Shown here: positions 2,773 through 18,343 of the stretch, in pieces
Numbering within the stretch: the stretch's first letter is position 1
Layout: each line of letters opens with the position of its first letter
DNA from: a virus
Strand: one strand, 5' to 3'
Virus record (IMG/VR): IMGVR_UViG_3300037264_003358
Coordinates: 1-25,091 of that record
Length of the DNA stretch: 25,091 nucleotides
Translations under genes and position numbers: made by a program
Notes under the pieces: generated by a model
Told to the model about the DNA's origin: nothing
The model's database searches: none
Seen by the model: only the letters and a program-made list of their open reading frames with translations

Positions 2773-2923
2773 GGTCGACCCTCTCGTTGAGCAGCTTCAG
2801 GCTCAGCCGGAGCGCGGCCTCGATGCTCATCGGCGTCGCGCGGGCCATCTCCATCGCTCCCTGCATGAGTCGGCGGCGCTCATCGGGCGGCAGGTCCTTC
2901 AGTCTGCGGATTCGTTTTCGCAC
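2765..2923 (-). CDS. Very small basic helical protein
   Basis: This 52-aa product starts at GTG 2923, inside the end of the zinc-finger gene (25-nt overlap), with AAGGAG 5 nt upstream. The N-terminus is strongly basic (VRKRIRRLKD). The rest is predicted helical, with an Arg-rich first helix and a second amphipathic helix (SIEAALRLSLKLLNE). An upstream frame reaches 3001, but that part is antiphase to the zinc-finger gene. Codon use and overlaps suit a translated gene. Function is not known. Confidence 0.5.
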   Translation of the reverse strand: MRKRIRRLKDLPPDERRRLMQGAMEMARATPMSIEAALRLSLKLLNERVDHA

Positions 2924-3312
2924 TCGGCCTCCTTGAACTCGGGGTGCTGCGTCTCCATGTGCCGCATGAGGTTCTGAAACGTGCGATTGCAGCAGGGACA
3001 CACGCCGTTGCCGACGCGGTTGCGTACCCTGGTGACCTGCCCGCGGTACGCTCGAGCTGATCGCTTCGCGCTCTCGGTCCGAGCCTGCTCTCGCTGTACA
3101 CGAGCCCTTTCCTCAGTAAGTTGCTTTTTCAGCTGCTCCACTTCCGACTCCCCGAAGCGTAGTCGGTGCCCCCTGGGACAGTGGAAAACGGTTCCCTTGA
3201 CGCGAGCGACGCGCGCGAACTCGCGAGGCATGCCGAAGGCCATCCCGCAGCTCTCGTCCCAGCACTCGAAATGCTCCAGGCAGCTATGGAACTGCAAAAC
3301 CTGTGCGCTCAT
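2899..3312 (-). CDS. Zinc-finger/coiled-coil phage protein
   Basis: A 137-aa protein in three parts. Residues 17-49 hold Cys17, Cys22, Cys45 and His49, a probable N-terminal zinc knuckle. Residues 55-90 form a charged coiled coil. Residues 105-123 are a C2H2-type finger (Cys105-x2-Cys108-x9-His118-x4-His123, CPCCNRTFQNLMRHMETQH). I recall this three-part layout and the 'GVCPCCNRxFxNLxRHMxxxHP' ending from uncharacterised proteins in many phages and prophages. ATG 3312 has AAGGAG 8 nt upstream and overlaps the stop of a 24-codon leader ORF as ATGA. It is the first sizeable gene of the leftward operon and possibly a DNA-binding regulator. Confidence 0.75.
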   Translation of the reverse strand: MSAQVLQFHSCLEHFECWDESCGMAFGMPREFARVARVKGTVFHCPRGHRLRFGESEVEQLKKQLTEERARVQREQARTESAKRSARAYRGQVTRVRNRVGNGVCPCCNRTFQNLMRHMETQHPEFKEAECENESAD

Positions 3313-3383
3313 GGCTTCGTCTCCTTGAAGCGTGCTCGCCGCGGGTGAACGAGGTCCTGGGGGTAGGGCCACACGGCGAGCAC
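3309..3383 (-). CDS. Putative 24-codon leaderless leader ORF
   Basis: This frame opens with GTG at 3383, exactly 6 nt after the -10 TATGGT, so the predicted transcript would begin at this codon. It reads VLAVWPYPQDLVHP and continues with a basic stretch ending KETKP. It stops at TGA 3311-3309, overlapping the zinc-finger gene's ATG as ATGA. Third codon positions are mostly G or C, as in the other genes. It could be a leader peptide that delivers ribosomes to the next gene, or a real small protein. There is no experimental or homology support; the geometry is the evidence. Confidence 0.45.
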   Translation of the reverse strand: MLAVWPYPQDLVHPRRARFKETKP

Positions 3384-3389
3384 GTAGCT

Positions 3390-3418
3390 ACCATAGGAGT
3401 TTGCGAACTCCGTGTCAA
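3390..3418 (-). promoter_or_regulatory. Sigma70-type promoter for the leftward zinc-finger/HTH operon
   Basis: On the minus strand a perfect TTGACA (3418-3413) is followed by 17 nt and TATGGT (3395-3390). The spacer is occupied by a 16-bp inverted repeat. Transcription would begin about 3383, at the GTG of the leader ORF. Confidence 0.7.
3396..3411. promoter_or_regulatory. Operator-like dyad inside the leftward promoter spacer
   Basis: GGAGTTTGCGAACTCC has perfect 6-bp arms (GGAGTT/AACTCC) and fills 16 of the 17 bases between -35 and -10. A bound dimer here would block RNA polymerase. The ribbon-helix-helix gene 56 bp away is the obvious candidate ligand, by inference. Confidence 0.55.
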
Positions 3419-3431
3419 CGTCGTGTGGCGC

Positions 3432-3460
3432 TTGTCAGCACATGGCGAAGTGGCTACGAT
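3432..3460 (+). promoter_or_regulatory. Promoter for the ribbon-helix-helix gene
   Basis: TTGTCA (3432-3437) is followed by exactly 17 nt and TACGAT (3455-3460). The ATG comes 6 nt later at 3467, predicting a leaderless transcript. Its -35 is only 13 bp from the -35 of the divergent leftward promoter, so the two would compete for polymerase. Confidence 0.65.
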
Positions 3461-3466
3461 GTCCGC

Positions 3467-3625
3467 ATGCCTGCCAAGAAAGACCAGCTGCCGAACCTCA
3501 ACATCCGCATGACGAAGGACGACCATCGCGTTCTCGCCCGGCTCTGCAAGGAGCTGGGCCTCAACGTGTCCAGCGTCGTCCGCGTGGCGCTGCGCGAGCT
3601 TGTGCGGCAGCGAGCAGCCGCGTGA
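3467..3625 (+). CDS. Ribbon-helix-helix (CopG/Arc-type) regulator
   Basis: A 52-aa protein with a strand (residues 9-15, PNLNIRM), a first helix (TKDDHRVLARLCKELG), a turn (LNVS) and a second helix (SSVVRVALRELVRQR). This is the standard CopG/Arc/MetJ layout, in which a dimer inserts a two-stranded sheet into the DNA major groove. It stands alone, divergent from the leftward small-gene operon and facing the end of the virion operon, with only 7 nt between convergent stops. No toxin partner is present. It probably represses the divergent promoter through the dyad at 3396-3411 and may control itself. No Shine-Dalgarno sequence precedes the ATG. An upstream extension of the frame to 3332 runs through the divergent promoters and is rejected. 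Confidence 0.75.
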   Translation: MPAKKDQLPNLNIRMTKDDHRVLARLCKELGLNVSSVVRVALRELVRQRAAA

Positions 3626-3945: not shown

Positions 3946-6060
3946 TCATTCGCTCCCTAGGCGCTGCTCGCGCGTTTCGAGGCCCTGCCCGAGCTTCGGG
4001 GCGCCGCCGATCTTGGCCGCGCGCGTGTCGGACTTGCTTTGCTCCGCCCCATAGCTCTCTTGTACCGCGGCGATGACGCGCGGGTCCAGCGTCGGATCCG
4101 TCGGGGCGTCGAAGGCGATCCCCAGCGCCACGCGCGTATCGTAGTCCGGCATCGAGCCGCGCCGGATGTTGCGGGCATACTCGCGGAGCACGCGCCCGCG
4201 GAGGTCCAGGTACATGTCCGGCATGTGCTGCTTCAGCGCGCTGATGGTGTCTCCGTAGATCCATCCGCTTTGCAGCTCGCTGAGGACCGCGCCTGCGCCG
4301 TCGGTGAGCGCGTCCTGCGTGCGCTCGAGCTTCTTCACGCGGGTCGGGTCCTTCGGGGCCCGGCGGAGGATGCTCCCGGGCGCGTCCATGAACTCGCCCA
4401 GCGTCTTGACGTTCTCGAGGAGCTTGCTCTGGATGGCTGCCGCCGACTGCTTCGGAATCCGCTTCTCCAGCTCGGCGAGGACCGTCGCGTCCGTCCCGAG
4501 CTGCTGCATCTGCTCGACGGCGCGCACGCGCTGGCGGTGCTCGCTCGAGCCCGCCGGCTCCCCGTCGGCGAGGCGGATGCCGGTCTGCGCCGTGCCACGC
4601 GCGGCAATCTCGGCGATCTTCGCCACGCTGTCCGCGTGCTTCGTCGTGATGGCGGAGAGCGCGGAGAGCACCGAGGCAGGGATCCCCGTCGCCACGCTCA
4701 GCGCGCGCGTCGCCGCGTTCCCGGCGGCGCCCGAAGCGACCTGTGCGGCGAGCTCGCGCGCCTTGTTGGCGCCCACGCCGGGGATCGGCGGCGCCTCGGC
4801 GGCCTCCTTCAGCTCCCTGGCGAGGTCCGCGGCGTGGCTCTTGGCCTTGTCGAGCGCCTCCGCCGTCGTCTTGGCGGCCTTCTTGGGGAGACCAGGGCCA
4901 GCTTCGCCCAAGAGGCCCTCCGCACGCGTCGCCCACCCTTCGAAGTCGCGGTGCCACGAGGCCACGTCCTTGGTCGTCGGGTCGGATGTGAGCCTCGGGG
5001 GCGGCTCGATCTTCGGGATCACGGGTGCCACGGCGCCGCCGGTGGGCTTGACGACGCCAGTCATGTCCTGGCCCAGCTGCCTGCGCAGCTCGTAGCCCAT
5101 ATCGCCAGCCACTCCGCGCGCCGCGGCACCGCGGGAAGTGCGGAGAGAGGACCGATCGAGGTTCCGGTGGACCTCGTCGGCGTGTTGGACCGCGGAATTG
5201 ACCCGATCCAGGGCTGATTTCGTCGGGATCCGCCGCGCCACCGCCGTGGAAGCGTCATCGGCGGCCCCGAGGAGCTTCGCCACGCCCGCTTTGACGGCGT
5301 TGGAGGTGGTTTCGGCCGCTTTGGCGCCCGCGCGGACCGCCCCGGAGGCGAGAGGGGCCAGCGCGCCACCGACGCCCCCCAATCCGGCGCCCAACCCCAC
5401 GTTTTTGAGGATGTTCTTGCTGATCTCGGCGCTGATGACGTCCAGCGTCACCGGATTCCCGCTCAGAACCGCGTCGGTGACCGCCTGCTGGACCGTGATA
5501 TTGGCGCCCTCGGCCATCCCGGCGCCGATCCCGCGCACCAGGCTGCTGCCCGTCCGTGCGAGCAGCGACGGAGCAGCGGCGGCCGCCTCGCCAGCGATGC
5601 CTGCCCCTCGAGCGATGCCACCGGCCGTTCCTGCGGCCTCCGCGGCTGCTGTGCCGCCCGCGAGGCCCGCTTCGCCAGCTGCCCCCAGGAGCCGGGCGCC
5701 ACTCCGCAGGGCCCCTCCTGCTGTCGCGGCGAGGGCAACGCCGCCCGCGATCTCGCTACCCGTCGAAAGCATCGGGTTGTAGGCCCGGAGCTTCGCCAGG
5801 TCCTCGGGCGTCGTCAGCTGGCCGAGCAGCAGGTCACTCAGGCCGAAGGGAACCGCTCCGCGCGCGAAGCCGGCGCCCGCGGCAGCCGCCATCCCGCCGG
5901 GGCCGCTGTAGGCCTTGCGCTCCTCGTAGCCCTGCGCCTCTTCGGGGACGGCGTAGCGGAAGTCTCCGCGCGCCACGCCCTTCGCGGCCTCGTCGGCGGG
6001 GAGGATCCCCACCTCGTTGCCGATGACGACCTTGACCATGCCCGGCGTCGTGTCGGCCAT
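3946..6060 (-). CDS. Large Ala/Gly-rich protein, probable internal virion (ejection) protein
   Basis: This 704-aa protein has an N-terminal segment of about 55 residues, then a long Ala/Gly-rich, weakly hydrophobic region (about 55-260) with several stretches able to associate with a membrane. Helical, charged segments follow (for example about 395-425 and 500-600) and a compact C-terminal part with GWIYGDTISALKQHMPDMYL. Long low-complexity helical proteins at the end of a short-tailed-phage virion operon are usually internal core or ejected proteins that help DNA cross the cell envelope. No lysozyme or transglycosylase motif was recognised. AGGA lies 4 nt before the ATG. Assignment rests on position and composition, not homology. 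Confidence 0.6.
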   Translation of the reverse strand: MADTTPGMVKVVIGNEVGILPADEAAKGVARGDFRYAVPEEAQGYEERKAYSGPGGMAAAAGAGFARGAVPFGLSDLLLGQLTTPEDLAKLRAYNPMLSTGSEIAGGVALAATAGGALRSGARLLGAAGEAGLAGGTAAAEAAGTAGGIARGAGIAGEAAAAAPSLLARTGSSLVRGIGAGMAEGANITVQQAVTDAVLSGNPVTLDVISAEISKNILKNVGLGAGLGGVGGALAPLASGAVRAGAKAAETTSNAVKAGVAKLLGAADDASTAVARRIPTKSALDRVNSAVQHADEVHRNLDRSSLRTSRGAAARGVAGDMGYELRRQLGQDMTGVVKPTGGAVAPVIPKIEPPPRLTSDPTTKDVASWHRDFEGWATRAEGLLGEAGPGLPKKAAKTTAEALDKAKSHAADLARELKEAAEAPPIPGVGANKARELAAQVASGAAGNAATRALSVATGIPASVLSALSAITTKHADSVAKIAEIAARGTAQTGIRLADGEPAGSSEHRQRVRAVEQMQQLGTDATVLAELEKRIPKQSAAAIQSKLLENVKTLGEFMDAPGSILRRAPKDPTRVKKLERTQDALTDGAGAVLSELQSGWIYGDTISALKQHMPDMYLDLRGRVLREYARNIRRGSMPDYDTRVALGIAFDAPTDPTLDPRVIAAVQESYGAEQSKSDTRAAKIGGAPKLGQGLETREQRLGSE

Positions 6061-6066
6061 GGCGTC

Positions 6067-7968
6067 CTACTTGTAGAGCCGATCGGGGTCAGGCTTGGGT
6101 GGTCCAGCCGGCTCCTGAGACGGTGGCTTGGGGAGTTCGGTGCCAGCGGGAACGCCGAAAACCTGGCCCGTCTCGGCGAGAGAGCGCCCGGTCATTTCAC
6201 GCCGCGCCTCGCCGCGCCGTGACTTGTAGATTTTCGCCCGTTTCTTCCCCTCGGCGTCGCGGTAGGTGCTTCCGGGCTCGACGGCATGTGACTCGGCGGT
6301 TGTGTCGACGAGATCCTCAACGTCGCGCTGGATTGAGCCTAACGCCTCGCCCGCGTTGGCGGCGTTGATTTCCGCGGGTACGACGATGCCGGCGCGGGCC
6401 ATGTTCTGGTCGTGCTCGCGCACCACTCCCTGGTCCAGCGCCTTGGTGTGGACCATGAACGTGATCCACGCGGCCTTGCTCTTCTGGATCTCTCTGGCTG
6501 TGAAGTTGGCTTCGTCCCATCGGCCCTCGTCGGCCGCGGCCTTGAGCTGCTGGAGGAGTCGCCTGGTCGTTGTGAGGTATGTGCCAGAGTCTCGGAGAAG
6601 CTTCGCTGTCTCCTTGTTGTCGACGAACCCGCCGTAAGCCGGAACCTCGTAGCCGATCTTGCCCTCGTCATACTCGACGTCCCAGCCGCCCTCGATTTCC
6701 TCCATCCCCGTCTTCGCCTTGCCGCCCATGCCCACCGCGAGCTTCTGCTGCTCAAGCTGACCGGCGTAGTCGCGCATCGTCACGTCCAGCACCTCGTTGT
6801 TGCGTTGGATCGCTTCGATAGCCTGCCGCGCTCCGATCTTCGCCTCCTCGGTCGCCGCCTCCGTCTCCATCTGCTGGAGGAACTGGATCGCCTGATCGTT
6901 CAGGCCGCGCTTCGCCATCGCCTCGGCCGCCGGCAGGTCGCGCAGCTGGTCGAACAACGTCCCGAGGATGTGCTGTTCCGCTCCAACACGCCGGCCAGCG
7001 GTGTCGATGTCGGCCTTCTGCGCCGCGATGTCCTGGTCGCGCATCGTCATGAACATCTCGGCGGCCTGGTTGCCCTGGCCCGTGAGCGCGCCGCCGATGC
7101 CGCCCAGCATCAGCGAGAACGCCATGAAGATGTTCCCGAGGGCGCCCTTCTCCTTCATCATCCGGTCCGGGTCGATCTCTCGGTTCGCCGCGTCCGCGAG
7201 CGCGATGACGTTCTGGGACCGCTGCTCGATGTCCCGGTGGAACTTGTCCACCTTCTCGCGGCTCGCCGTCTCGACAGCCTTCCGTTCCTCTTGGAGACGC
7301 TGGTTCTCATCGAGGACGCGCTGCCCACGCGCCGCGTCGCCCGTCTTCATTTCGGCCTCGGCCTTGAGCTTCGCCTGGACCGGATCAAACTTCGTCATCA
7401 CGCCTGCACGCGCCTGAAGGCCTCCGCCAGGCCCGGTCTTGTTGTACCACTGGCCGTACGCCTCCAGCTGCTCGTTGGCCTGGTCGATGGTGATCCGCCC
7501 GGCCTCCAGGTCGTCCATCACCGTCGCCGGATAGATCTCCGGGTTCGCGCCGAAGAACCGGCCCCCATACGTTCCGGGCGGCCCCTCGGGAACCGGAGGC
7601 GCCAAGGTGCCCGAGAGCGCGGCGGTAGTCTGATAGGCCTGGGCGGCCTCGGCGCGCTTTCCCGCGGCGCCGGCCCGCACGCCCTCTTCGTCCCCGGGCA
7701 TCTTCGCTTGGAGGCCGGCCATCCGCGCAGCCATCGCGTCCCCCGTCTCGCGGAAGACGCGGGCTGCCTCCATGGCTTGGTAGGGCGTCAGGTCGGGAAC
7801 GTTGGTCACCGCCTCGCCCTGCGCCGTCGCCGCCTCCTTGAACGGCTCGATGGGCAGCGGCGACACCTCGGTCCTCGAAGCGGGCGGCCCGGACGGCGGA
7901 ACCGGCGGACCCTTGTACCGCATCGAGTCGGGGAGGTACGCGTCCTGCGGGAGGGGCGGGAAAGCCAT
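6067..7968 (-). CDS. Probable internal virion/ejection protein, helical
   Basis: A 633-aa protein with a Pro-rich start (residues 1-40), a long helical and coiled-coil-prone centre (about 195-265, rich in Lys, Glu, Arg), a hydrophobic glycine segment at 277-297 (ALGNIFMAFSLMLGGIGGA) that could insert in a membrane, more helices (300-420), and a mixed C-terminal domain ending in a Pro-rich tail. This fits a protein stored in the head or tail and ejected into the host. ATG 7968 shares a base with the preceding stop (TGATG); the frame remains open 31 codons further upstream, but that part is antiphase to the previous gene. The nearest ribosome site, GAGAGG, is 11 nt away, so coupling is likely. 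No enzyme motif is seen. Confidence 0.6.
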   Translation of the reverse strand: MAFPPLPQDAYLPDSMRYKGPPVPPSGPPASRTEVSPLPIEPFKEAATAQGEAVTNVPDLTPYQAMEAARVFRETGDAMAARMAGLQAKMPGDEEGVRAGAAGKRAEAAQAYQTTAALSGTLAPPVPEGPPGTYGGRFFGANPEIYPATVMDDLEAGRITIDQANEQLEAYGQWYNKTGPGGGLQARAGVMTKFDPVQAKLKAEAEMKTGDAARGQRVLDENQRLQEERKAVETASREKVDKFHRDIEQRSQNVIALADAANREIDPDRMMKEKGALGNIFMAFSLMLGGIGGALTGQGNQAAEMFMTMRDQDIAAQKADIDTAGRRVGAEQHILGTLFDQLRDLPAAEAMAKRGLNDQAIQFLQQMETEAATEEAKIGARQAIEAIQRNNEVLDVTMRDYAGQLEQQKLAVGMGGKAKTGMEEIEGGWDVEYDEGKIGYEVPAYGGFVDNKETAKLLRDSGTYLTTTRRLLQQLKAAADEGRWDEANFTAREIQKSKAAWITFMVHTKALDQGVVREHDQNMARAGIVVPAEINAANAGEALGSIQRDVEDLVDTTAESHAVEPGSTYRDAEGKKRAKIYKSRRGEARREMTGRSLAETGQVFGVPAGTELPKPPSQEPAGPPKPDPDRLYK

Positions 7969-8360
7969 CAGGGGGGCAGCCTCTCCACGTCGAGATCGAC
8001 GTTGGCCGTGGTCGCCATGGCGAACGGCGCCGCCGAATCGCGGTGCTGCCGGAAGATCCACTCCTCCTGTGCGCGCAGTTCAATGAGGCTCGTTTGCCCC
8101 GTGGCGGCGCGGATGCCGATGTAGCCCGCGTTCCCGATGGGGTTGCGGTTCTTCAGCTTCCACACGCCACCGACCGCGGTGTCAGCGCTGGTCCCGAGGT
8201 CGATCGCCTCCTCGACACCGGCGACGAAGGTTTGCGTCGTCCCGCGAACGCACTTCGTGCCCGTCACGTCGATCTGCTGCGTCCGCAGCGGCACCGTCCA
8301 CGTCTCTCCGTTGGAGAGCACCGCCTCGGCGCTCGTCACGATCGTCAATTCCTTGGCCAT
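7968..8360 (-). CDS. Small beta-sheet virion protein
   Basis: A 130-aa protein with many short strands (LTIVTSAEAVLSNGETWTV, GVWKLKNRNP, AGYIGIRAATG). It resembles the small beta-rich proteins made by tailed phages for capsid decoration, tail plugs or fibre attachment. ATG 8360 overlaps the previous TGA and has AGGGAG 6 nt upstream. A run of six C residues directly precedes its stop codon. It sits between two putative internal virion proteins. The exact role is not recognised. Confidence 0.65.
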   Translation of the reverse strand: MAKELTIVTSAEAVLSNGETWTVPLRTQQIDVTGTKCVRGTTQTFVAGVEEAIDLGTSADTAVGGVWKLKNRNPIGNAGYIGIRAATGQTSLIELRAQEEWIFRQHRDSAAPFAMATTANVDLDVERLPP

Positions 8361-9856
8361 CACTTGCTCCCTGGGAACCGCGCCAGAAGCGCATCGAGCC
8401 GCGCGCGCGCGCGCCGGACTGCATCATCCGGCAGCGCCGGAGCAGCATCCATCCGTCCGCCTTCGCCACCGTGACCGGGCACGCTGCCGGCTCCCTCGTC
8501 GCCGTAGGCGTAATCCGCGGGAGCGCCACCCGAGCGGCCCCGGGGGCCACGGCGCCCGGAGTAACCCTCCCAGTGGGGCTCGATGGCGTTGATGGGAATC
8601 CCGCCGATCTCCCGCATCTTTCGTGGCTCCGGCTGCTCCAGCTCGCGGACGCGCTCGTTCAGTCGGCCAAGGAGCGCCAGCGCCGTGGTGCTCGCCTTGG
8701 GGCCGTCCACCTGCTTCACGCCGCCCTCGCCCTCGCGAACGAGGCCGGCGCCGATCGGGGTGCGCTCCAGCTCCTGCGCGCTCACGCCGTACTGCGGGCC
8801 AGGGCGCTGCGCGGCTTCGGGGCCAGGCTGGTACTCGAACTCGCGGCCCCGGAGCGCATCGAGGGCCTGGTCCTCGCGCTGAGTGCTCGCGCGCGGGAGC
8901 GGGTTCGGGCTCGGGCGCGCAAGCAGGCTCGACGTTCGCTCGCCTTCGGCATCGAGCTCGCGGAAGATCCGACCCACGCCGCCGCCTGTCCCCGGGCCTG
9001 TTCCCGCTCCGCCCTGGTAGGTGTTGCGCCCCGGCGGGAGCCCACGGCCGTGCTGCTTCGTCTGCCCGAGCGCGGCGTCCATCTTGGCCTGCTCCACGTC
9101 GAGCGCCAGCGACAGCTCGCTCACCCGGCTGTCCGGGAGCGTCTGCGCCTTGTTCCACGACTGCTCCGCCAGCGACACAGCCCACTCGGTCGCCGCGGCG
9201 TACTCCGCCTCGCTCATCACGCCGGCCTGCATCGCCGCCTGGAGGTCGTCGAGCTGACCAGCCGCCTCGCCGTGGATCGCTTGCTTGATGCGCTCGTCGC
9301 TGCCCAGCCACGCGCCGCCCATGCTGCCGAGTCCGCTTAAGATACCCCCGCCGATCTGTCCCCAGATCCCACCCTCCGCGTCCTCTTCCGCCTTGTCGGC
9401 GGCATACTTCGCCGAGCGCGCCATCTCGTAGGCGCGCTGGTAGTCGGCCATCAGAACCTCGGTGCCGAGCATCATCTGTGGCTCAGTCCCGAGCGCCTGG
9501 AGGTAGCCAGCCTGCGCCTGACCAAACTCCTGCGCCCGGTTCATGCCCATCTCGCGGCTCAGCCCTGCGCCTTGCTGCGCGCCTCCTAGCTGCGCGGCGC
9601 GGAGAGCCAGCGGGCTCTGTGACCCGGCCGCCGCCATGCGCATCTGCTGCTCCGCCTGCGACTGTCCCGCGAGCTGCGACTGCTGCGCCACCGACGCCGC
9701 GCCGCTCCTCTGCGCCTCCAGCGCCGCGCGCGCCACCTGCTCGTACTGCGCGAGCCATGGATCGAGACCCTGCTCGTACGCCTTCCGAGCGTTGGCCTCG
9801 GCAATCGCGTGGGCCGCGTCTTCTGGCGTGGTGAATATGCCGGGTTGAGTGATCAT
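8360..9856 (-). CDS. Virion protein with glycine-rich hydrophobic hairpin, paralogue of next gene upstream
   Basis: A 498-aa protein. Residues 20-125 are helical and rich in Gln/Ala. Residues 165-186 form a glycine-rich hydrophobic segment (WGQIGGGILSGLGSMGGAW) ending in SDERIKQAI. Residues 190-260 are helical, and the remainder is low-complexity Gly/Pro/Arg-rich. The N-terminal half and the hydrophobic motif are clearly related to the 232-aa protein encoded just upstream, so the two look like a duplicated pair. SDERIKQ recalls the SDxRLK motif at the start of phage intramolecular chaperone (peptidase S74) domains, but no full S74 domain follows. The ATG overlaps the upstream stop as ATGA. 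Likely an internal or tail-associated protein involved in DNA ejection; low homology support. Confidence 0.6.
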   Translation of the reverse strand: MITQPGIFTTPEDAAHAIAEANARKAYEQGLDPWLAQYEQVARAALEAQRSGAASVAQQSQLAGQSQAEQQMRMAAAGSQSPLALRAAQLGGAQQGAGLSREMGMNRAQEFGQAQAGYLQALGTEPQMMLGTEVLMADYQRAYEMARSAKYAADKAEEDAEGGIWGQIGGGILSGLGSMGGAWLGSDERIKQAIHGEAAGQLDDLQAAMQAGVMSEAEYAAATEWAVSLAEQSWNKAQTLPDSRVSELSLALDVEQAKMDAALGQTKQHGRGLPPGRNTYQGGAGTGPGTGGGVGRIFRELDAEGERTSSLLARPSPNPLPRASTQREDQALDALRGREFEYQPGPEAAQRPGPQYGVSAQELERTPIGAGLVREGEGGVKQVDGPKASTTALALLGRLNERVRELEQPEPRKMREIGGIPINAIEPHWEGYSGRRGPRGRSGGAPADYAYGDEGAGSVPGHGGEGGRMDAAPALPDDAVRRARARLDALLARFPGSK

Positions 9857-10551
9857 CCGTAGTAGCCGCCGCCTCCCCCTTGGTAATTTTTATCCGTCTG
9901 CGTAGGCGACTTCGGCCCGGCTGGTGTGCTCGGGCTACCGGCCCATCCGGCGCCGGCCGTCGACAACCCTTGGAGCGCGCCGCCGCCCAGCTTGCCCCAC
10001 ATCTGCATCTGGGCGATGCTGCTCTGCGCGTTGATTCCGTACTGCGCCGCGAGCGCGTCGAGCTTCGCCAATTTGTTCTGCATGTCGAGCTGGTGTAACT
10101 GCTGCTCGAGCTGCGCGCGCTGGAGGAGCGCCGCCTGTTGCATCTCTTGCCCCTGCTGCATCTCTTGGGCTTGGATCGTCTGCGCCGTCATCCCCTGCTG
10201 ACCCTCCAGGCGCCCGCTGGCGTACTGTCCCGCGCGCGCGGCGGCGGCGCTTCCACCGTAGCCGGCCGCCATGGCGTTGATTCGGCCCTGCTGCTGGCCG
10301 GTTGCCGTCTCGAGCTGCTGCTGCGCGGGCGTCCGGCGATCCTCGGCTTGGTTGAGGTACGCTTGCGCCTGCTGAAGCACCGGCTGATAGGCGTCGCCGA
10401 ATTGCTTCTGCCACTGCTGAAGCTGCGTGGGCGGAGCCGCTCCGCCAAGGCCCATCTGCGCCATCAGCTTCCGGCGCATCTCCTCGGGCATCCACGAGGG
10501 GATCTGCTCCTCGCCGAATGCGACGTATTCGCCCGCTGGTGTGAGTGACAT
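9853..10551 (-). CDS. Gln/Ala-rich virion protein with glycine hydrophobic motif
   Basis: A 232-aa protein. After a short N-terminal domain (SWMPEEMRRKLMAQM at 19-33), residues 42-180 form a Gln- and Ala-rich helical region. Then come WGKLGGGALQGLSTAGAGW at 185-203, matching the segment in the 498-aa neighbour, and a Gly-rich tail ending GGGGGYYG. A role as an ejected or internal virion protein that forms or crosses a membrane channel is plausible. GAGG lies 7 nt before the ATG, just after the stop of the nozzle-like gene. The helical region is low in complexity, so database similarity may be misleading. Confidence 0.6.
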   Translation of the reverse strand: MSLTPAGEYVAFGEEQIPSWMPEEMRRKLMAQMGLGGAAPPTQLQQWQKQFGDAYQPVLQQAQAYLNQAEDRRTPAQQQLETATGQQQGRINAMAAGYGGSAAAARAGQYASGRLEGQQGMTAQTIQAQEMQQGQEMQQAALLQRAQLEQQLHQLDMQNKLAKLDALAAQYGINAQSSIAQMQMWGKLGGGALQGLSTAGAGWAGSPSTPAGPKSPTQTDKNYQGGGGGYYG

Positions 10552-10555
10552 CGCG

Positions 10556-13500
10556 TTACCTCGCCTCCGCCAGTTTAGCCCGACCGGCCTTTTTCCGCAC
10601 CTCCACCGCGAAGCCGCTGATGACCGGGCCCCGCCCGGGCTCGAGCGGCACCGCCGGGTCGCGCGTCTCGCGCATGCGGAGCTTCACCACCTCGCACTTG
10701 GTCCCGTGGATGGCCATGAGCAGGTTCCGCTCCGGATCGGGGAGCTGCGCATCCTGCTCCGCGGTCGTCAGCGTCAGCGAGTCGGTCGGCTCCGTGGCGT
10801 AGTCCACGAGGATGTCGAGCGTGATGGTGCTGCCGTCCACGCGACGCAATAGCGCCTGGCCGTAGCGCGTGCGCATGTAGCCGCCGATGTCGCCGAGGCG
10901 GATCCAGCCGGTCTCCACTTCCATGTCGGCGTAGGTCGCGCCCGCGTCGATGCTGGTGGTCGCGTCCTCGACGTAGGGGATGCCGCCCGCGGTGACGATC
11001 CAGTACTCGCCGTCGAGGTAGGCGCCGCCGGTGATGTCGAGGAGCTGGCCGTTCGCGTCGCGCGGTTCCCATCGGCTCCACGCGCCGACGCTGTAATCGA
11101 AGACGAGAACGATGGAGGCGCCCGCGCCGTTGTTGCACGTGAAGCGGAGTTGCGTCACGCCCTTGCAGTCGACCGCCGAGGTGATAGTGGGGTAGGCCGC
11201 GAGCGAGTCCTCGACGGGGGCGCCGATGTACTCGACACGGAGCGCGCGGGAGACTTGATAGAGGCCCCCTTGGCTCTGGAAGAACACCCCGCCGTCCTCT
11301 TTGCCCAGCGTCCAGTTGACGACGCTCCGCGGGTCGATGCAGCCGTACGGGGCGATCTTCCGAATGACGTAATCGTTCCCGACTGCGGCGTTGTCGGGGC
11401 CGCTCCCGGCGATGATGTACGTGGCCTCCTGGCTCCAGCCGATGGCGCGGCCGTCGAGCTCCCGGCCGCCGAAGATGCGCGAGCCGTCGGGGACGAGGAG
11501 CGAGAACCCTTCGTTTGCTTCGGGGACGATGGAATCATCCGACGCTGACCCCTGCGCGAAGGCTTTGGTGAAGCCGAACCGCGCCTTGCGCATGTGGTCG
11601 CCGGTGAAGACGCGGTCTCCGACCACGAAAACGATCCGTCCGCCGTCGGGCATGACGGCCTCCACCTGATCGGGGACGTAGATCGTCTCGGCCAGCTGCG
11701 TGTTCACCGTCAGGTCGCGGTAATTGGACAGCGACCGCGCGGCCTGGGTGTTGGCGTTCACCATGCCGCCGAAATTGGTCCGCGCCGGATCGGCGATGCC
11801 GTTCGGCGTGCTGTTGCGGTAGACGACCGCGCTCATGTCCTGGTTGTCGCGATGCGTGAACGGCAGCGACATCATGGTCACGGTGGCGCTGGCGTTGGCC
11901 GTGGGCGTGATGGTCCGCGTGTAGTCGGGCACGCCCCGGTGGCGCCAGCCACGCTCCCGGTGCTCCCACGTGGACTGGTAGATGTAAGGAATGCTGATGG
12001 TGAGCGGCAGCGTGCCCGTGGCGACCTGCGCGAGAGATGTGATGACCGGCGGGATCAGAAAGCCCCACTCGATGGCCTCCCCGCCCGCGTACCACGTGAA
12101 ATACCCGCCCCCGATGATCGCGGCGCCGCGCGCGATGGCTGCCCCAATGGGAGCCTCGCGGTAGTCGAGTTGCACTTCGCTGGCGCCGAAGCTCGGGATC
12201 GCATCGACGGCCGCGGCGTTGAAGTAGAAGAAGCTCATGGCCTGCGCCATGCACCGCCACTCGTTGGGTCGCGTGGATGGCTGGTGCGCGCGGCTGCCGT
12301 TGCCGGTGTTGATGAGGTGGTTTTTCGGCGAGCCGAGGCCCACGTCGAAGGCAGCCGCAAGGCGAGTGGCATTTGTGGTAGCGCCCGGCTGGTCGTTGAG
12401 ATCCACGACGCAGTTGGCCATGAGCCCCATGGCGAATTGCTCATCCTGGCCCACGCCCAAGATCGTCAGCTCGCCGGGTGTCGTCACACACGACACATAG
12501 GCGCGGCCGTCCTGCCACCACGGTTGCGACAGCGGCATTGCGTTGTAGCCGATCGCCTCGGCAGCGCCGGGGCGGATGTCGCCGCCGTCGGATGCTCGCA
12601 CGCTGCGCCAATGTAGATCGCCGCCGATGGTCGTCGAGCTGGTGTTCCTCACGCCCCAGGTGACGACGACGCGCAGCTCCCCGGTTTCGTCGCGTCCCAT
12701 CGCGACGCCGAGGTTTTCTCCCTGGTCGCTGACGCCTGTCGTGCCCACGGTGACCGCGCCGGCCCACTCCGCTCCCATGGTGGCGCGCTTGAAGGCGCGC
12801 ACGCGGATGAGATCGGACTCTGCCGCCTCGATCCACGCCACGTAGACGCGATCATCTTCCCCGATGCCGTCGCACGTCGCAACGCGGTAGTACGTCGCTC
12901 CGGTGATGCTCCCGGTAGCCTGGGAGACGCTGCCTTGGCTCCAGCGTTCGAGTTGAATCGTGGTCTGAAGGCTGTCGATGTAGGCCGTCATGTAGTCGGT
13001 CGTCTGGACACCGACGCCGCAGTACATGCGCACGGCGCCGTCGTGCGCCATGTCGGTGGTGACGTTCGCGGCAACCGTCGGAGCCGCTCCCGGCGTAAGC
13101 GTCGGGTAGACGTACCGCGCGAGAGTCGCGGGAGACGCGAAGTTGTTTGCGAAGAGGATGACGTGGCCCAAGCCGTGCTTGATGACGCGGGGCGAATGTG
13201 GAGCGCTCGCGCCGCTCGCCTCCGCGGTGAGAAGCTCGAACGTGTCCTCGCCATCCGCCGACTTTCCAATCATGCGGATGCGAGATGAGGGCGTCCCGGC
13301 GTTGTCGGTGTCGCTCGTTCGGTTGAGCACGGTTTGCCGCGCAGCGTAGACCGAGAACCCGTTAGACTCAGCAGAGTCTGGCGCCGTGAACGTCGGCTCG
13401 TGGTGGAACACAGGGAGCTGGTGCCCGGTGCACGGGCTCAGCGGCCCACGGTCGACCCATCTGTCGGCCTCGGGGACGTAGGCGAACAGCCTGCGCGCGC

Positions 13501-13777
13501 CGAAGGCGACCACCTCGCCTTGCGAGGGCCGCTCGTTGGGAATGGCGAGAAGGCCGCGCACGGGCCCATGCTGGCCGAGCTTCCAGCCGGCTGAGGGGGT
13601 TGCCCCGCCGACGACCGAATCGGTGACGCGACGGAAGCCGTTGCGTTTGGCGATCCCGCCCATCTTCACGAAGTAGCCGTTGACGATCTTCGCCATCGCC
13701 TCGCCGGGCAACATGCGATCGTCGATCGACTCGTCGATGCCCTTCAGGAGCGGGATGGGGAGGCGTTCGGTCGGCAT
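10556..13777 (-). CDS. Large tail nozzle/hub-type protein
   Basis: The 1073-aa product is the largest in the window. Its opening (residues 8-50, PIPLLKGIDESIDDRMLPGE, then IVNGYFVKMGGIAKRNGFRRV) resembles the start of short-tailed-phage nozzle or stabilisation proteins (P22 gp10 and T7 gp12 type), which begin with a 'GI-D-R-P-----N-----G-L-KR-GF' pattern. The rest is overwhelmingly beta-strand with many aromatic residues, consistent with a propeller-like hub. It would sit below the adaptor ring and close the DNA exit channel. The start overlaps the preceding stop (TGATG). No enzymatic depolymerase motif is recognised. The adaptor gene two genes upstream supports the assignment. Confidence 0.7.
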   Translation of the reverse strand: MPTERLPIPLLKGIDESIDDRMLPGEAMAKIVNGYFVKMGGIAKRNGFRRVTDSVVGGATPSAGWKLGQHGPVRGLLAIPNERPSQGEVVAFGARRLFAYVPEADRWVDRGPLSPCTGHQLPVFHHEPTFTAPDSAESNGFSVYAARQTVLNRTSDTDNAGTPSSRIRMIGKSADGEDTFELLTAEASGASAPHSPRVIKHGLGHVILFANNFASPATLARYVYPTLTPGAAPTVAANVTTDMAHDGAVRMYCGVGVQTTDYMTAYIDSLQTTIQLERWSQGSVSQATGSITGATYYRVATCDGIGEDDRVYVAWIEAAESDLIRVRAFKRATMGAEWAGAVTVGTTGVSDQGENLGVAMGRDETGELRVVVTWGVRNTSSTTIGGDLHWRSVRASDGGDIRPGAAEAIGYNAMPLSQPWWQDGRAYVSCVTTPGELTILGVGQDEQFAMGLMANCVVDLNDQPGATTNATRLAAAFDVGLGSPKNHLINTGNGSRAHQPSTRPNEWRCMAQAMSFFYFNAAAVDAIPSFGASEVQLDYREAPIGAAIARGAAIIGGGYFTWYAGGEAIEWGFLIPPVITSLAQVATGTLPLTISIPYIYQSTWEHRERGWRHRGVPDYTRTITPTANASATVTMMSLPFTHRDNQDMSAVVYRNSTPNGIADPARTNFGGMVNANTQAARSLSNYRDLTVNTQLAETIYVPDQVEAVMPDGGRIVFVVGDRVFTGDHMRKARFGFTKAFAQGSASDDSIVPEANEGFSLLVPDGSRIFGGRELDGRAIGWSQEATYIIAGSGPDNAAVGNDYVIRKIAPYGCIDPRSVVNWTLGKEDGGVFFQSQGGLYQVSRALRVEYIGAPVEDSLAAYPTITSAVDCKGVTQLRFTCNNGAGASIVLVFDYSVGAWSRWEPRDANGQLLDITGGAYLDGEYWIVTAGGIPYVEDATTSIDAGATYADMEVETGWIRLGDIGGYMRTRYGQALLRRVDGSTITLDILVDYATEPTDSLTLTTAEQDAQLPDPERNLLMAIHGTKCEVVKLRMRETRDPAVPLEPGRGPVISGFAVEVRKKAGRAKLAEAR

Positions 13778-14133
13778 CAGTACACCGCGATGGCGACGCT
13801 CACGGTCACGCCGGAGTCGTTGCGCAGGGTCAGCGTATCACTGCTCGTCGCCGTCTCCACGATGGCTCCGTTCACCGTGCCGCTCGGCGCGTGAAGCCGC
13901 GTGATGATCCATCCGCGTGGCGCGCGCCCGAGGGCGTGGCGGAAGACGGCGGTGGCGCCGGTGGTGAGCGTCTTAGAGTCGAGGAACTTCACATCGCCAT
14001 CGAGGAACGGGTGTTTGCTCGCTGCGCGGGCATCGTCCTCGACGGCCTCTTGCTGCGCGACCTGTGGGTAGTCGCCCTGGAGCGGCACAGCGGCCCCGCG
14101 CCGTGCCCGGTTCGACATCCGGGCGCGTCCCAT
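13777..14133 (-). CDS. Small virion protein of the head-tail region
   Basis: A 118-aa protein with a basic N-terminus (MGRARMSNRARRG), a polar helical part (VAQQEAVEDDARAAS) and a C-terminal beta-rich half (FRHALGRAPRGWIITRLHA to the end). ATG 14133 overlaps the adaptor stop (TAATG). A second ATG five codons later is an alternative start, and neither has a strong ribosome site, suggesting coupling. The C-terminal strand pattern is like small tail-tip or spike-anchoring domains seen between adaptor and nozzle genes. The role is inferred from position. Confidence 0.65.
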   Translation of the reverse strand: MGRARMSNRARRGAAVPLQGDYPQVAQQEAVEDDARAASKHPFLDGDVKFLDSKTLTTGATAVFRHALGRAPRGWIITRLHAPSGTVNGAIVETATSSDTLTLRNDSGVTVSVAIAVY

Positions 14134-14870
14134 TACGGCTGGGGCTCGCGGAGGTAGGGCCCGCCGTGGAAGTCCATCCAGGCGTGGTCGTGGCGCACGT
14201 CGCTCACCCGCGCCGGTCGTCCGGCGTCGCGGTTGCCAGCGAGGGCGTCGATCTGATCGGAGATGGTCTTCTGCTTGTCGCGGAGTGCGCCGTATTGCTC
14301 GAGCGACTCCTCCTTGATGAGCAGATCGCACGCGGCTTCGTAGACCGCCCACTCTTCCCAGCCGTTGATGCCGTCGAAGGTGTTGGGCGTCCCGGGAGAC
14401 GCGACCAGGCGCGTGAAGCGCGGCACGTAGTAGATGAGGAGCGAATGTCCGCTCGCGTTCGGCTTCGGGCGGATCTCCACGTTGCTTCCGCGGAGCTGGT
14501 ACATGTAGCTGTAGAGCCCGACGTATCCGGTCTGCTCGCGCTCCAGCAGAATGGCGCGCTCAGCGTCGTTGAACGGCTGGAGCTCGCGGCGCCACGTCCC
14601 ACCGTCGCTGACGATGAGGCGCGAGAGCAGATAGAAGTCTGCGGGGAGCGCGTAGCTGAAGGTCCCCGACACGAGCGCGATGGTGCCGTCGGTGGAGAAG
14701 AACGGCTGACCCCACGCCAGGATGAGCTTGTCGTAGAGGCGCTCGATCGCCGCGTTGATACGACGATCGAGCATCTCGTTTTTGATGAAGTGGGTGGCCG
14801 CCTTGGTGGTGTTCATGTCCGACACGTCACGGACGCGCGCACGGAACTCCTCCAGGGTGACGGCTGCCAT
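14133..14870 (-). CDS. Head-tail adaptor (portal-ring tail adaptor)-like protein
   Basis: A 245-aa protein with an N-terminal helical part (EEFRARVRDVSDMN, then LDRRINAAIERLYDKLILAW), a beta domain with FSYALPADFYLLSRLIVSDG (about 71-89), and a C-terminal helical segment (WEEWAVYEAACDLLIKEES). Phage adaptors that bind the portal dodecamer (P22 gp4 and T7 gp11 types) share 'INxAixxLyd', 'yxLPxDFy' and a late 'AxyLLikee' helix. The gene lies after the capsid and before the nozzle-like gene, as expected. The ribosome site before the ATG is weak (GGGTGA). Confidence 0.75.
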   Translation of the reverse strand: MAAVTLEEFRARVRDVSDMNTTKAATHFIKNEMLDRRINAAIERLYDKLILAWGQPFFSTDGTIALVSGTFSYALPADFYLLSRLIVSDGGTWRRELQPFNDAERAILLEREQTGYVGLYSYMYQLRGSNVEIRPKPNASGHSLLIYYVPRFTRLVASPGTPNTFDGINGWEEWAVYEAACDLLIKEESLEQYGALRDKQKTISDQIDALAGNRDAGRPARVSDVRHDHAWMDFHGGPYLREPQP

Positions 14871-14873
14871 GGA

Positions 14874-15068
14874 TCACCCGAGCGAGATGGTCACGCCCTC
14901 GCTCTTGCCCAACATGTGCACGAGGCACACGAACATGTCGTAAGCGTCCTCGTGGTCTTCCTCGGGGACGCCCATCATGGAGGCCCACTCGCAAAAGAGC
15001 GGGTAGGCCTCCCCCTTGTCGCCCGAGGGCGCCGACGAGTTGCCTTGCTTGATGTAGTCCTTCAGCAT
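14874..15068 (-). CDS. Small acidic head-module protein
   Basis: A 64-aa acidic protein with a flexible start (MLKDYIKQGNSSAPSGDKGE) and a helical, Met-rich second half (FCEWASMMGVPEEDHEDAYD). ATG 15068 lies just after the preceding stop; a longer frame to 15113 only overlaps the upstream gene. Small acidic proteins in this position may be assembly factors or head completion proteins, but nothing in the sequence decides this. Confidence 0.5.
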   Translation of the reverse strand: MLKDYIKQGNSSAPSGDKGEAYPLFCEWASMMGVPEEDHEDAYDMFVCLVHMLGKSEGVTISLG

Positions 15069-15072
15069 GGCA

Positions 15073-15453
15073 TCACGTCTGCGGAATGATCCGGTACAGC
15101 TCGAGAAAAACACTCACCACGGCGTTGTCCGTCGGATCCGCGGCGGTGTTGCCGTTCGCGGCGTTGGTCGTCACCTGCACCGTGTTGGCCGCCGCGCCAG
15201 CGCTGACGGCGGTGACCTTGCCGTCGAAGCCGACGAGGCGGACGTTCACATGGCCCTCGATGTCGGCGTAGGTGTCCGTCAGCGTCATGGTGAAAACGCC
15301 CGCGCTGTTGCGGACGATGGTGCTGGTGATGAGATTGCCGCGGTCCACGATCCCGTCCGGGTTGCTGGTGCCGTTGATGGTGAAGCGCACGTTGCCATTC
15401 ACTACATCGGGCTGGGCATGCCCCAACGGGTAGCCGCCGTCGCCCGCGCTCAT
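15073..15453 (-). CDS. Small beta-rich capsid-associated protein
   Basis: A 126-aa protein made mostly of strands (VNGNVRFTINGTSNPDG, FTMTLTDTYADIEGHVNVRL) and Gly/Ala/Asn-rich turns. The hydrophobic and Thr-rich composition is typical of capsid decoration proteins or head fibres. Its ATG overlaps the upstream stop as ATGA, and it follows another small beta protein directly downstream of the major capsid gene. It and that neighbour may form a decoration system. No homologue is recognised. Confidence 0.65.
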   Translation of the reverse strand: MSAGDGGYPLGHAQPDVVNGNVRFTINGTSNPDGIVDRGNLITSTIVRNSAGVFTMTLTDTYADIEGHVNVRLVGFDGKVTAVSAGAAANTVQVTTNAANGNTAADPTDNAVVSVFLELYRIIPQT

Positions 15454-15917
15454 ACGAACTCCAGAACGACGCTGAGGTAGCCGACGGCGAGCGCCACCCC
15501 GGTGCCGGACTTGACCTGATCGATGACAAGCACCTCGCCGTTGGCGATGGTATCGGTGCTGGCCATGGCGAACGCGCGCGGTACGTCGGCCGTGAACGCG
15601 GTGGCCGAGGTAGCGAGCGCATCATAGGCCGTGGTCGCGCCGCCCGCGCCGTCCTGCTTCCCGATCGTCTGCGTCGTGAAGTTGGACCCGTTGGCGGCGG
15701 CGGTCGTCAGGTAGACGAGCGACGCGGCGACGATGCGTACGGTGTAGCCGGTCTGATTGTGCCAGACGATGTGCTCCTCGTTGTCGGCCGCCGCAGCGTC
15801 TGCGCGGAGCATGCACGACAATTGACGGCGCCGCAGCGCCGCTTCGATGTCCGTGGGGCCGCTCGTCACGGAGTGACCGAAGTCGGCAAGTTTCTTGGTT
15901 GCATCCGACATTGGCAT
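15450..15917 (-). CDS. Probable capsid decoration/head protein
   Basis: A 155-aa product directly downstream of the major capsid gene, a frequent location for capsid-stabilising proteins. After a helical start (SDATKKLADFGHSV; EAALRRRQLSCMLRAD) it is beta-rich and Ala/Thr-rich (YTVRIVAASLVYLTTAAANG; ATTAYDALATSATAFTADVP). AAGGAG lies 8 nt before the ATG, one of the best ribosome sites in the window, consistent with high expression. The assignment to decoration is based on position, size and composition. Confidence 0.65.
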   Translation of the reverse strand: MPMSDATKKLADFGHSVTSGPTDIEAALRRRQLSCMLRADAAAADNEEHIVWHNQTGYTVRIVAASLVYLTTAAANGSNFTTQTIGKQDGAGGATTAYDALATSATAFTADVPRAFAMASTDTIANGEVLVIDQVKSGTGVALAVGYLSVVLEFV

Positions 15918-15929
15918 GACGGGTTCTCC

Positions 15930-17177
15930 TTACAGGGTGGCGAGCACGCTGTTGTTCGGACGGAAGCAAATGTTGTTCATGTAGGACTTGATCCTGAACT
16001 GCTTGCCGTCGGTGTTGGTGTCCACGAAGTAGCGGTCGCCCGCGAACTTGTCGAAGTGGGGAAGCTCGCCGAGGGCGCGAAGCTCCCAGCTGTCGAGCTC
16101 GGTGAGGAGGGCGTGGTCGTAGGACCACACCGGATCCGAGAGCACGAACAGCGGGCCGCCCGCCGTCATGATCTTGAAACCATCGTAGAAGATGTTCGCC
16201 TGCGACACGGCCTTGCCGTTGACGCGCTGCTCACCGGCCTGGAGCTTGGCCGGTTCGTAGCGCGAACGCGCCTGGAGCGACAGCGCCAGGTCCGAATGCC
16301 GACGGCTGTTGATGACCGCCACGTTCATCTTGCGGGCGCCGAAGATTTGCCCATAGGACGCTGCGCGGACGATGGTGTTCTCGACGGGGCCGCCTGCGCC
16401 CTGGGTGTAGCGGATGCCAGCCAGCTTGTGCGGGTAGTCCGTCCGCGTCGCGCCGAAGAGCGCCGCGGGGGACGCGGACGTGGTGATCCAGCGCAGGATG
16501 CCGGCGATGACGTTGTTGTAGTCGCCGTCGCGGAAGAGGTAGTCGCTGGTGCCCCAGTCGGGAACCGTGGTGACCGCTTCCAGCGTGGTGAGCGTGCCTG
16601 CGACCGGGTCGACGCCGGTGACCGTGAGCCGCCCTGCGTGCACGCCGCCGGCCGCGAGGCCGTCGTCGTTCGCGCATTGCAAGATCATCCGATCTTCGAA
16701 GAAGACCGCATCGAGCGGGTTCTGGAGCGTGAGCGTGGTGCCGGACGGGGCCACCGTGGTGGACAGCTGCGCGAGGGAGCCGCCGCCGTTGCCGCAAAGG
16801 TAGATGCCGTTTCGACGGCTCCACTCCGCGAGCGCCATGTCGGTGTGCAGCTTGAGCAGGTTCTCCATGGCGCCGTCGTCGCTCGCCGAGGCCATGATCG
16901 CCTCGTTGGAGATGGTCCCGAGAACGTACGAGGGCGTTCGGGTGACGTTGAAGCTGCGCTTGGCCGACGTGCTTTGGTTCTGGTGCGCCCGGTCGTAGTC
17001 GTTCGAGCCGGTGATGGTGCTCAGGATCGCCGTGATGCGGAAGTCGTCGCCGGCGAACACGGTGTTCTTGGGGATCGCCCCGAAGAGGGACGACTCGGGG
17101 TACAGGGCTTTCTGGCCACCGTCGTCATACAGCCGCTTCAGAAGTGGCTGGCCGGTGGTCGTGGTTTCGATGCTCAT
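15930..17177 (-). CDS. Major capsid protein
   Basis: The 415-aa protein is assigned as the HK97-fold shell subunit on order (terminase, portal, scaffold, this gene), length and composition. After a short N-terminal arm come a long strand-and-helix domain including QNQSTSAKRSFNVTRTPSYV (about 66-85), a helix carrying the LLKLHTDMALAEWSRRNGIY segment (about 107-126) as in the spine helix of many capsid proteins, a beta-rich P-domain region, and a C-terminal part with NVAVINSRRHSDLALSLQAR and a strand-rich end. GGAGG about 7 nt before the ATG gives a strong ribosome site, and the gene is preceded by an 89-nt untranslated spacer with a hairpin. No protease is evident nearby. Confidence 0.8.
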   Translation of the reverse strand: MSIETTTTGQPLLKRLYDDGGQKALYPESSLFGAIPKNTVFAGDDFRITAILSTITGSNDYDRAHQNQSTSAKRSFNVTRTPSYVLGTISNEAIMASASDDGAMENLLKLHTDMALAEWSRRNGIYLCGNGGGSLAQLSTTVAPSGTTLTLQNPLDAVFFEDRMILQCANDDGLAAGGVHAGRLTVTGVDPVAGTLTTLEAVTTVPDWGTSDYLFRDGDYNNVIAGILRWITTSASPAALFGATRTDYPHKLAGIRYTQGAGGPVENTIVRAASYGQIFGARKMNVAVINSRRHSDLALSLQARSRYEPAKLQAGEQRVNGKAVSQANIFYDGFKIMTAGGPLFVLSDPVWSYDHALLTELDSWELRALGELPHFDKFAGDRYFVDTNTDGKQFRIKSYMNNICFRPNNSVLATL

Positions 17178-17242
17178 GCACTTTCCTCCAGCTCCGCGGA
17201 TGCGAAGCGATCAAGTGACACGACGCGGTGTGCCTACCGAAA

Positions 17243-17260
17243 CGCCGTTACCGTACGGCG
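17243..17260. terminator. Hairpin upstream of the capsid gene
   Basis: CGCCGT and ACGGCG pair across a 6-nt loop in the only sizeable spacer (17178-17266) within the virion operon. On the leftward transcript it is followed by UUUCGG rather than a full U-tract. It may attenuate, or act as an RNA-processing or stabilising element that sets capsid mRNA apart from scaffold mRNA. No clear promoter was found in the same spacer. Confidence 0.3.
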
Positions 17261-17266
17261 AGACGT

Positions 17267-18343
17267 TCAGCTGATTCCGAACTGGCCACGAAGGAACGGC
17301 GCAAGCGGCTCATCTCCACCTTTCGATGGCGTCTTGTTGGACGCTGAGGCTGCTGCATCGTTTGAGATCCCTTGTGAGCTCGTTCGCGGGCGGCTCTGCC
17401 CGGGTGCGGCCTTTTGCGGCTGGCCGTTCGCCGGAGCATCGCCGAGGAGTTCTCGACGACGGTTGTGTGAATACAAATATTCCGCTTCCGCCGCACTGTC
17501 CAGTTTGCGGATGATCCAAAGCGGGTCGGAGATGTCCTCGCCGGGGAAGGCGCCGCGGCTCGCGAGTGCCATCAGCTGTTCCACTGCCGGCTTGATCTCT
17601 ATCTCGAGCCTCGACGCGGGGAGCGACGCGAGAGACGGAAACGCCTTGGCGAGCTCGCCGTGGCTGGGGAGCTGCTGGATCATGGAGACCATGTCGTTGA
17701 TGGGCTGCGTCGCCTTGGCGTTCTCGATGGCTGCGACCTTCTCCACGAGCGGCTTCAGCGCCTCGTCGATGACCGCACGCATGTCCTCGCTCGCGCCCTG
17801 GGCCTTGGCCTTCACGCCCTGCGCGGCGACCGCGCGCATGACGTCGGTGAGCGACATGCCCGTCTCGCGCGCAGCCATCTCAAGCGCCGCGATGGCGTTT
17901 TTCGACCGGAGCGCATCCTTGATCGGACGGGCCCCTAGCGCCTCGGCAAGCGCCTGGTCGCGCTCGCGCTCTGCGCGCTCGGCGCGGGCGGTGGCTTCCG
18001 TCTCGCGCCGCCGCGCGGCGTTCATGCTGTCGATGAGCTTGCGGCGCTCGACGCGCTTGTCCTCGGGCGCAGGCGGCTCCTTCGGCTTGTCGTCCGCGGG
18101 CGGAGCGGGCGGGGCGGCAGCGTCGGCCTTTGCGTCGCCAGGCGGCGGAGCGGGCGGGGCGGCGGCAGCGTCGGCCTGCTTGTTCGCGAAGTCTTCTGCG
18201 GCTTGCGAACTTTCCTTCGAAGCTTTGCGAAGATGGTCGACGCCCAACTCTTCCGCGAGGATGCCGCCGAGGGCAACGCCCATCGGAATGCTGTCGCCAG
18301 TGGGTGCCTTGTCTGGAACGTCGGATTTCTGCTCGTCCGCCAT
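17267..18343 (-). CDS. Scaffolding protein
   Basis: A 358-aa acidic, mainly helical protein between portal and major capsid, the classic scaffold position. Residues 1-55 are helical, residues 57-93 are a Pro/Ala-rich linker with two near-repeats (ADAAAPPAPPADDKP), residues 96-135 are a charged coiled coil (Arg/Glu/Ala-rich), and the rest is helical with a disordered end. This matches scaffolding proteins that direct procapsid assembly and then leave or are degraded. The ATG is 15 nt after the portal stop and has only a weak ribosome site. A fused protease is not apparent. Confidence 0.75.
   Translation of the reverse strand: MADEQKSDVPDKAPTGDSIPMGVALGGILAEELGVDHLRKASKESSQAAEDFANKQADAAAAPPAPPPGDAKADAAAPPAPPADDKPKEPPAPEDKRVERRKLIDSMNAARRRETEATARAERAERERDQALAEALGARPIKDALRSKNAIAALEMAARETGMSLTDVMRAVAAQGVKAKAQGASEDMRAVIDEALKPLVEKVAAIENAKATQPINDMVSMIQQLPSHGELAKAFPSLASLPASRLEIEIKPAVEQLMALASRGAFPGEDISDPLWIIRKLDSAAEAEYLYSHNRRRELLGDAPANGQPQKAAPGQSRPRTSSQGISNDAAASASNKTPSKGGDEPLAPFLRGQFGIS
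18099..18177. repeat. Two-copy direct repeat in the scaffold gene
   Basis: A 31-bp unit at 18099-18129 recurs at 18144-18177 with a 3-bp (GGC) insertion. Both are in frame and encode the Pro/Ala-rich linker of the scaffold protein. The unit contains several G-runs on the plus strand. It looks like a recent in-frame duplication. Confidence 0.8.

Follow-up and report, generated by a model that had tools for sequence, protein, structure and literature searches.

The 84-bp region at positions 3383 to 3467 of the virus record studied here is best read as an ordinary small-repressor control region of a tailed phage, with two sigma-70-type promoters and unusual leaderless starts, whose regulatory mechanism is partly supported. 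The window, by which we mean the whole stretch of DNA that was analyzed, is a 25,091-bp IMG/VR virus record classed as linear, with a GC content of 67%. On the predicted promoters, the region has the layout of a divergent switch, the promoters of a regulator and of an early-type operon standing back to back. The initial annotation had proposed such a switch, in which a ribbon-helix-helix (RHH) protein represses the divergent operon; the divergent promoters, the RHH protein, and the small-gene operon on the opposite side were all recovered, and from their arrangement we infer that the protein may bind a dyad in the leftward promoter and repress the operon. The evidence on promoters, dyad, and RHH protein comes from one genome.

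Predicted divergent promoters

The leftward promoter (TTGACA-N17-TATGGT, minus strand, 3390 to 3418) comprises a -35 box at 3418 to 3413, a 17-nt spacer at 3412 to 3396, and a -10 box at 3395 to 3390, with a predicted start near 3383. Its rightward counterpart (TTGTCA-N17-TACGAT, plus strand, 3432 to 3460) has its -35 box at 3432 to 3437 and, after 17 nt, its -10 box at 3455 to 3460, and transcription is predicted to start on the first base of the ATG at 3467. When the coordinates were recomputed, the gap between the two -35 boxes was 13 bp (3419 to 3431), in agreement with the back-to-back arrangement described initially.

Promoter-like matches are not in excess by number alone, the window holding 3 and the shuffles about 2 on average. 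Only two TTGACA sequences are found in 25 kb, both leftward and each ahead of a plausible gene, and back-to-back pairs no more than 40 bp apart arose in 2 of 300 shuffles. All three promoter matches place exactly 6 nt between the -10 box and an ATG or GTG (ATG 3467, ATG 1799, and GTG 3383), an outcome seen in 0 of 300 shuffles (mean, 0.06); the count was made after this spacing had already caught the eye, which leaves the shuffle test not fully independent, but the margin is large. The rarity of TTGACA, the rare back-to-back pair, and the uniform spacing make the promoters credible, and we regard these sequence-based predictions as well supported.

Predicted leaderless starts and a probable leader reading frame

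Because the -10 box lies exactly 6 nt before the start codon, the RHH gene and a 72-aa gene starting at 1799 look leaderless. In mycobacteria, leaderless RTG starts are documented, as are small leaderless open reading frames (ORFs) ahead of genes, and initiation there needs no more than a 5'-terminal RTG (PMC4633059). The features expected of a leaderless gene, an RTG some 6 nt past the -10 box and the absence of a Shine-Dalgarno sequence, are present in the window's sequence.

At the head of the leftward transcript there is probably a 24-codon ORF (GTG...TGA, minus strand, 3309 to 3383) that is likewise predicted to be leaderless, its GTG following the -10 box by 6 nt. The TGA of this leader overlaps the ATG of the first main operon gene (ATGA). 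Its frame is the best of six over the stretch from 3383 to 3312, and its codon score was equaled or exceeded by 3.6% of wrong-frame controls. As a prediction, the leaderless starts are cleaner than the link between protein and dyad and can be tested, and they suggest 5'-terminal start codons for the control genes of this phage; reading them as leaderless also reveals a leader ORF that annotation would overlook.

The segment from 1799 to 1864 may be a second divergent leaderless region. On its left, a promoter (TTGACA-N17-TAAGAT, minus strand, 1806 to 1834) whose spacer holds no dyad precedes the 72-aa gene (phrog_8389, minus strand, 1581 to 1799), which would start 6 nt past the -10 box. On its right, the ATG of an 87-codon Cys-rich ORF (1864) follows a weak -10 box, TATACG, by 6 nt; this frame is the best of six, yet its codon-usage score is below zero, which makes the ORF doubtful. 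The sequences GTGTCAAC and GTCAGCAC are common to both divergent regions, with part of this sharing being the -35 box itself. Elsewhere in the window, a leftward and a rightward ORF have their ATG codons (23685 and 23703) 17 bp apart, and the rightward one is preceded by TACACT-N6 with a weak -35 box.

The RHH protein

The rightward gene (plus strand, 3467 to 3625; coding score, +26) starts with no Shine-Dalgarno sequence and encodes a 52-aa regulator that matches Pfam RHH_1 with an E value of 3.2e-5 and 24.1 bits, over the curated cut-off of 20.5, which bears out its initial assignment as a ribbon-helix-helix protein. In a single-sequence monomer model, the two helices expected of the family, at residues 17 to 30 and 34 to 51, follow an N-terminal segment in which the strand was unassigned; Foldseek placed Arc and CopG among the top matches for this model, each individually nonsignificant. 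The best NCBIfam match was RelB_DinJ (E value, 3.1e-5), under its cut-off: membership among RelB/DinJ antitoxins requires 45.65 bits, against the 24.1 obtained, and an adjacent toxin gene, and no such gene was seen. Nor was a copy-control or partition partner seen beside the gene, which is the single rightward gene here and converges with the structural block, 8 bp separating the ends.

The leftward operon

The operon consists of small genes, beginning with a 137-aa product of the phrog_33336 family (minus strand, 2899 to 3312; E value, 1.6e-21) that has a zinc-finger-like C terminus, CPCC...H...H. An AAGGAG precedes its ATG, and the start at 3312 is backed by the homologue alignment. The C-P-C-C...H...H pattern is invariant, and the family occurs in many IMG/VR phage contigs. 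Further along lies a 65-aa helix-turn-helix (HTH)-like protein (minus strand, 2391 to 2588; phrog_409 E value, 0.002), modeled as three helices with a mean pLDDT of 70; its family matches are weak, some being to regulators and some to terminase small subunits. Farther on are a DnaA-C-like HTH protein and an ORF resembling adenine methyltransferases; the phage adenine/DNA methyltransferase-like reading frame, at 1120 to 1530, matches phrog_111 with an E value of 2e-23.

Alignment of phrog_33336 gathered 193 relatives, of which 80 were kept. In these, as in the phage records consulted, another gene usually lies close upstream of the phrog_33336 gene, and no homologue of the RHH protein was found near it. 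Many related phages have it overlapping the upstream gene by 4 nt, as in the window. Several homologues in Mycobacterium and Gordonia phages adjoin RecT and exonuclease genes, that is, they are located in early-type regions. Genes like the phrog_8389 72-aa gene were found at six IMG/VR loci, all of which also carry phrog_33336.

Relatives of the phage

Homologues were found for single genes only and not for the control region. Searches of viral, genome, phage, and plasmid collections, from which records near the window were perhaps left out, returned no phage with this control region, and an exact search for the promoter-plus-dyad pattern had no match. No relatives were found in IMG/VR with the portal, capsid, RHH, terminase, 1,073-aa, and 704-aa structural proteins as queries, nor did a portal search of phage records give a match. 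With the RHH protein as query, searches of phages, plasmids, and genomes yielded either no match or weak ones whose contexts were unrelated. The terminase aligned with proteins in a few genome bins, the best being a Byssovorax bin at 38%, and these loci had nothing else in common with the window except one marginal DnaA-like match.

Nearly all structural genes at 3949 to 18343 are without PHROG matches, which marks the lineage of this phage as poorly sampled. The portal (18359 to 20194) is P22-like. Within the structural region, a reading frame at 22034 to 23167 carries, by eye, a lipoprotein-like signal, ALFVGPLLGAAC. Lysogeny functions (an integrase or a maintenance repressor) were not seen among the proteins scanned in this linear, perhaps partial, 25-kb record.

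The spacer dyad and its possible binders

A dyad, GGAGTTTGCGAACTCC, occupies positions 3396 to 3411 and fills 16 of the 17 bases of the leftward spacer, as the initial annotation had described. Its 6-bp arms are perfect around a TGCG loop, and 7 of 8 pairs match when it is taken as a full 16-bp palindrome. The window holds 18 perfect 6+4+6 dyads, its 23 near-palindromes are at the chance level (shuffles gave 24.5 ± 5.3), and a dyad is found in about 0.9% of 17-bp stretches. Since dyads are common at the chance rate, the position of this one in the spacer is worth roughly P = 0.01 to 0.03. Further copies, which the initial annotation had suggested seeking, did not turn up: the 25-kb record contains no second copy. 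The dyad is thus weaker evidence than the promoters.

Measured from the leftward start, the center of the dyad is at about -20, which would be the classic position for a repressor; measured from the rightward start, it is at about -63, so that an operator here would act asymmetrically: the RHH promoter would not be blocked, and an RHH protein bound at the dyad would repress the operon and not itself. With the half-sites 10 bp (about one turn) apart, two dimers would bind one face of the DNA. Two other roles for the dyad were considered. Activation of the MerR type, which goes with a 19-bp spacer, was rejected for this spacer of 17 bp, and an RNA hairpin is unlikely because the dyad is upstream of both predicted transcription starts; a search of Rfam returned no family match.

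The promoters could be real and the palindrome a chance feature of GC-rich DNA with no regulatory role. That palindromes are as frequent in the window as in shuffles, that a second copy is absent, and that no conserved relative was found all speak for this explanation, but a chance palindrome would fill a given spacer almost exactly in only about 1% of cases, and this one adjoins a regulator gene; on balance we consider chance rather unlikely. The adjoining regulator might instead be an autoregulator that shuts both promoters from a direct repeat, TGTCA-R-C (plus strand, 3412 to 3439), leaving the spacer dyad incidental. The two copies of the repeat, gTGTCAaC (3412 to 3419) and tTGTCAgC (3432 to 3439), are 20 bp apart and span both -35 boxes, and TGTCAAC and CGTCAGC recur at the second divergent region (1828 to 1846). 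RelB binds [A/T]TGT[A/C]A hexads (PMC2812701), to which TTGTCA conforms exactly, and RelB_DinJ is the best, if subthreshold, NCBIfam match of the protein. This match, however, falls far under the curated score, and RelB sites are contiguous hexads, not copies 20 bp apart. The recurrence, moreover, is partly to be expected, since TGTCAA is the complement of the consensus -35 box. We judge an autoregulator of this kind unlikely.

HTH dimers, too, typically bind palindromes of this kind, 16 bp long and with one turn between the half-sites. The dyad might then be bound by the HTH-like operon product at 2391 to 2588, in a Cro-like feedback, or by a host regulator, with the RHH protein acting elsewhere. 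The three-helix model and weak regulator matches of the HTH-like protein would fit such a role, but those family matches also include terminase small subunits. Another binder seems distinctly unlikely.

A model for the control region

In the model that we prefer, the two promoters would fire apart, the leftward one into the early-type operon of small genes and the rightward one into the single RHH gene, and both transcripts would begin on a start codon or no more than one base from it. As paired dimers, the RHH protein would bind the dyad in the leftward spacer, between the two promoter boxes, and block RNA polymerase there, such that the operon would be switched down as the protein accumulates, whereas the promoter of the RHH gene itself would stay unblocked or might even be helped. 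Having finished the 24-codon leader, ribosomes would reinitiate on the first main gene through the ATGA overlap. We advance the model as a whole, combining repression through the dyad, leaderless transcripts, and leader reinitiation, tentatively and at somewhat less than even confidence. If the RHH-dyad pairing is correct, it would provide a minimal pair of repressor and operator in a phage that has hardly any characterized relatives.

A more elaborate proposal is that the early operon is under two-level control from the one 84-bp region, by an RHH repressor at the dyad and by the leaderless leader, whose Shine-Dalgarno-independent translation would gate the first operon gene through the stop-start overlap. 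Taken jointly, these steps appear improbable; were they true, the control genes of this phage would be tuned to leaderless translation.

Comparison with known systems

The immI region of phage P22 encodes Arc, an RHH repressor of the 53-residue class whose operator lies between the -35 and -10 boxes of the promoter that it controls. The window resembles it in having a short phage RHH protein and a candidate operator between these boxes, and the protein has matches to an Arc-like PHROG (phrog_582) and, by Foldseek, to 1par. The phrog_582 match is weak (E value, 0.04), however, the operator sequence is unrelated, the window's gene is predicted to be leaderless, and mnt and ant genes were not identified in the window. 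Autoregulated repressors of the CopG, omega, and RelB type are also short RHH proteins encoded beside the promoter controlled, but the putative target here is divergent rather than cotranscribed, and no counterpart of their toxin, copy-control, or partition partners was seen beside this gene.

Back-to-back promoters that set a regulator against an early operon are shared with lambda-type regions and that of Staphylococcus aureus phage 13. Unlike these regions, the window has an RHH rather than an HTH regulator and one dyad rather than several operators, and no integrase or lysogeny genes were seen in it. The predicted leaderless starts differ from mycobacterial leaderless mRNAs (PMC4633059) in belonging to a phage, but share with them an RTG that follows the -10 box by about 6 nt and a small ORF abutting the next gene.
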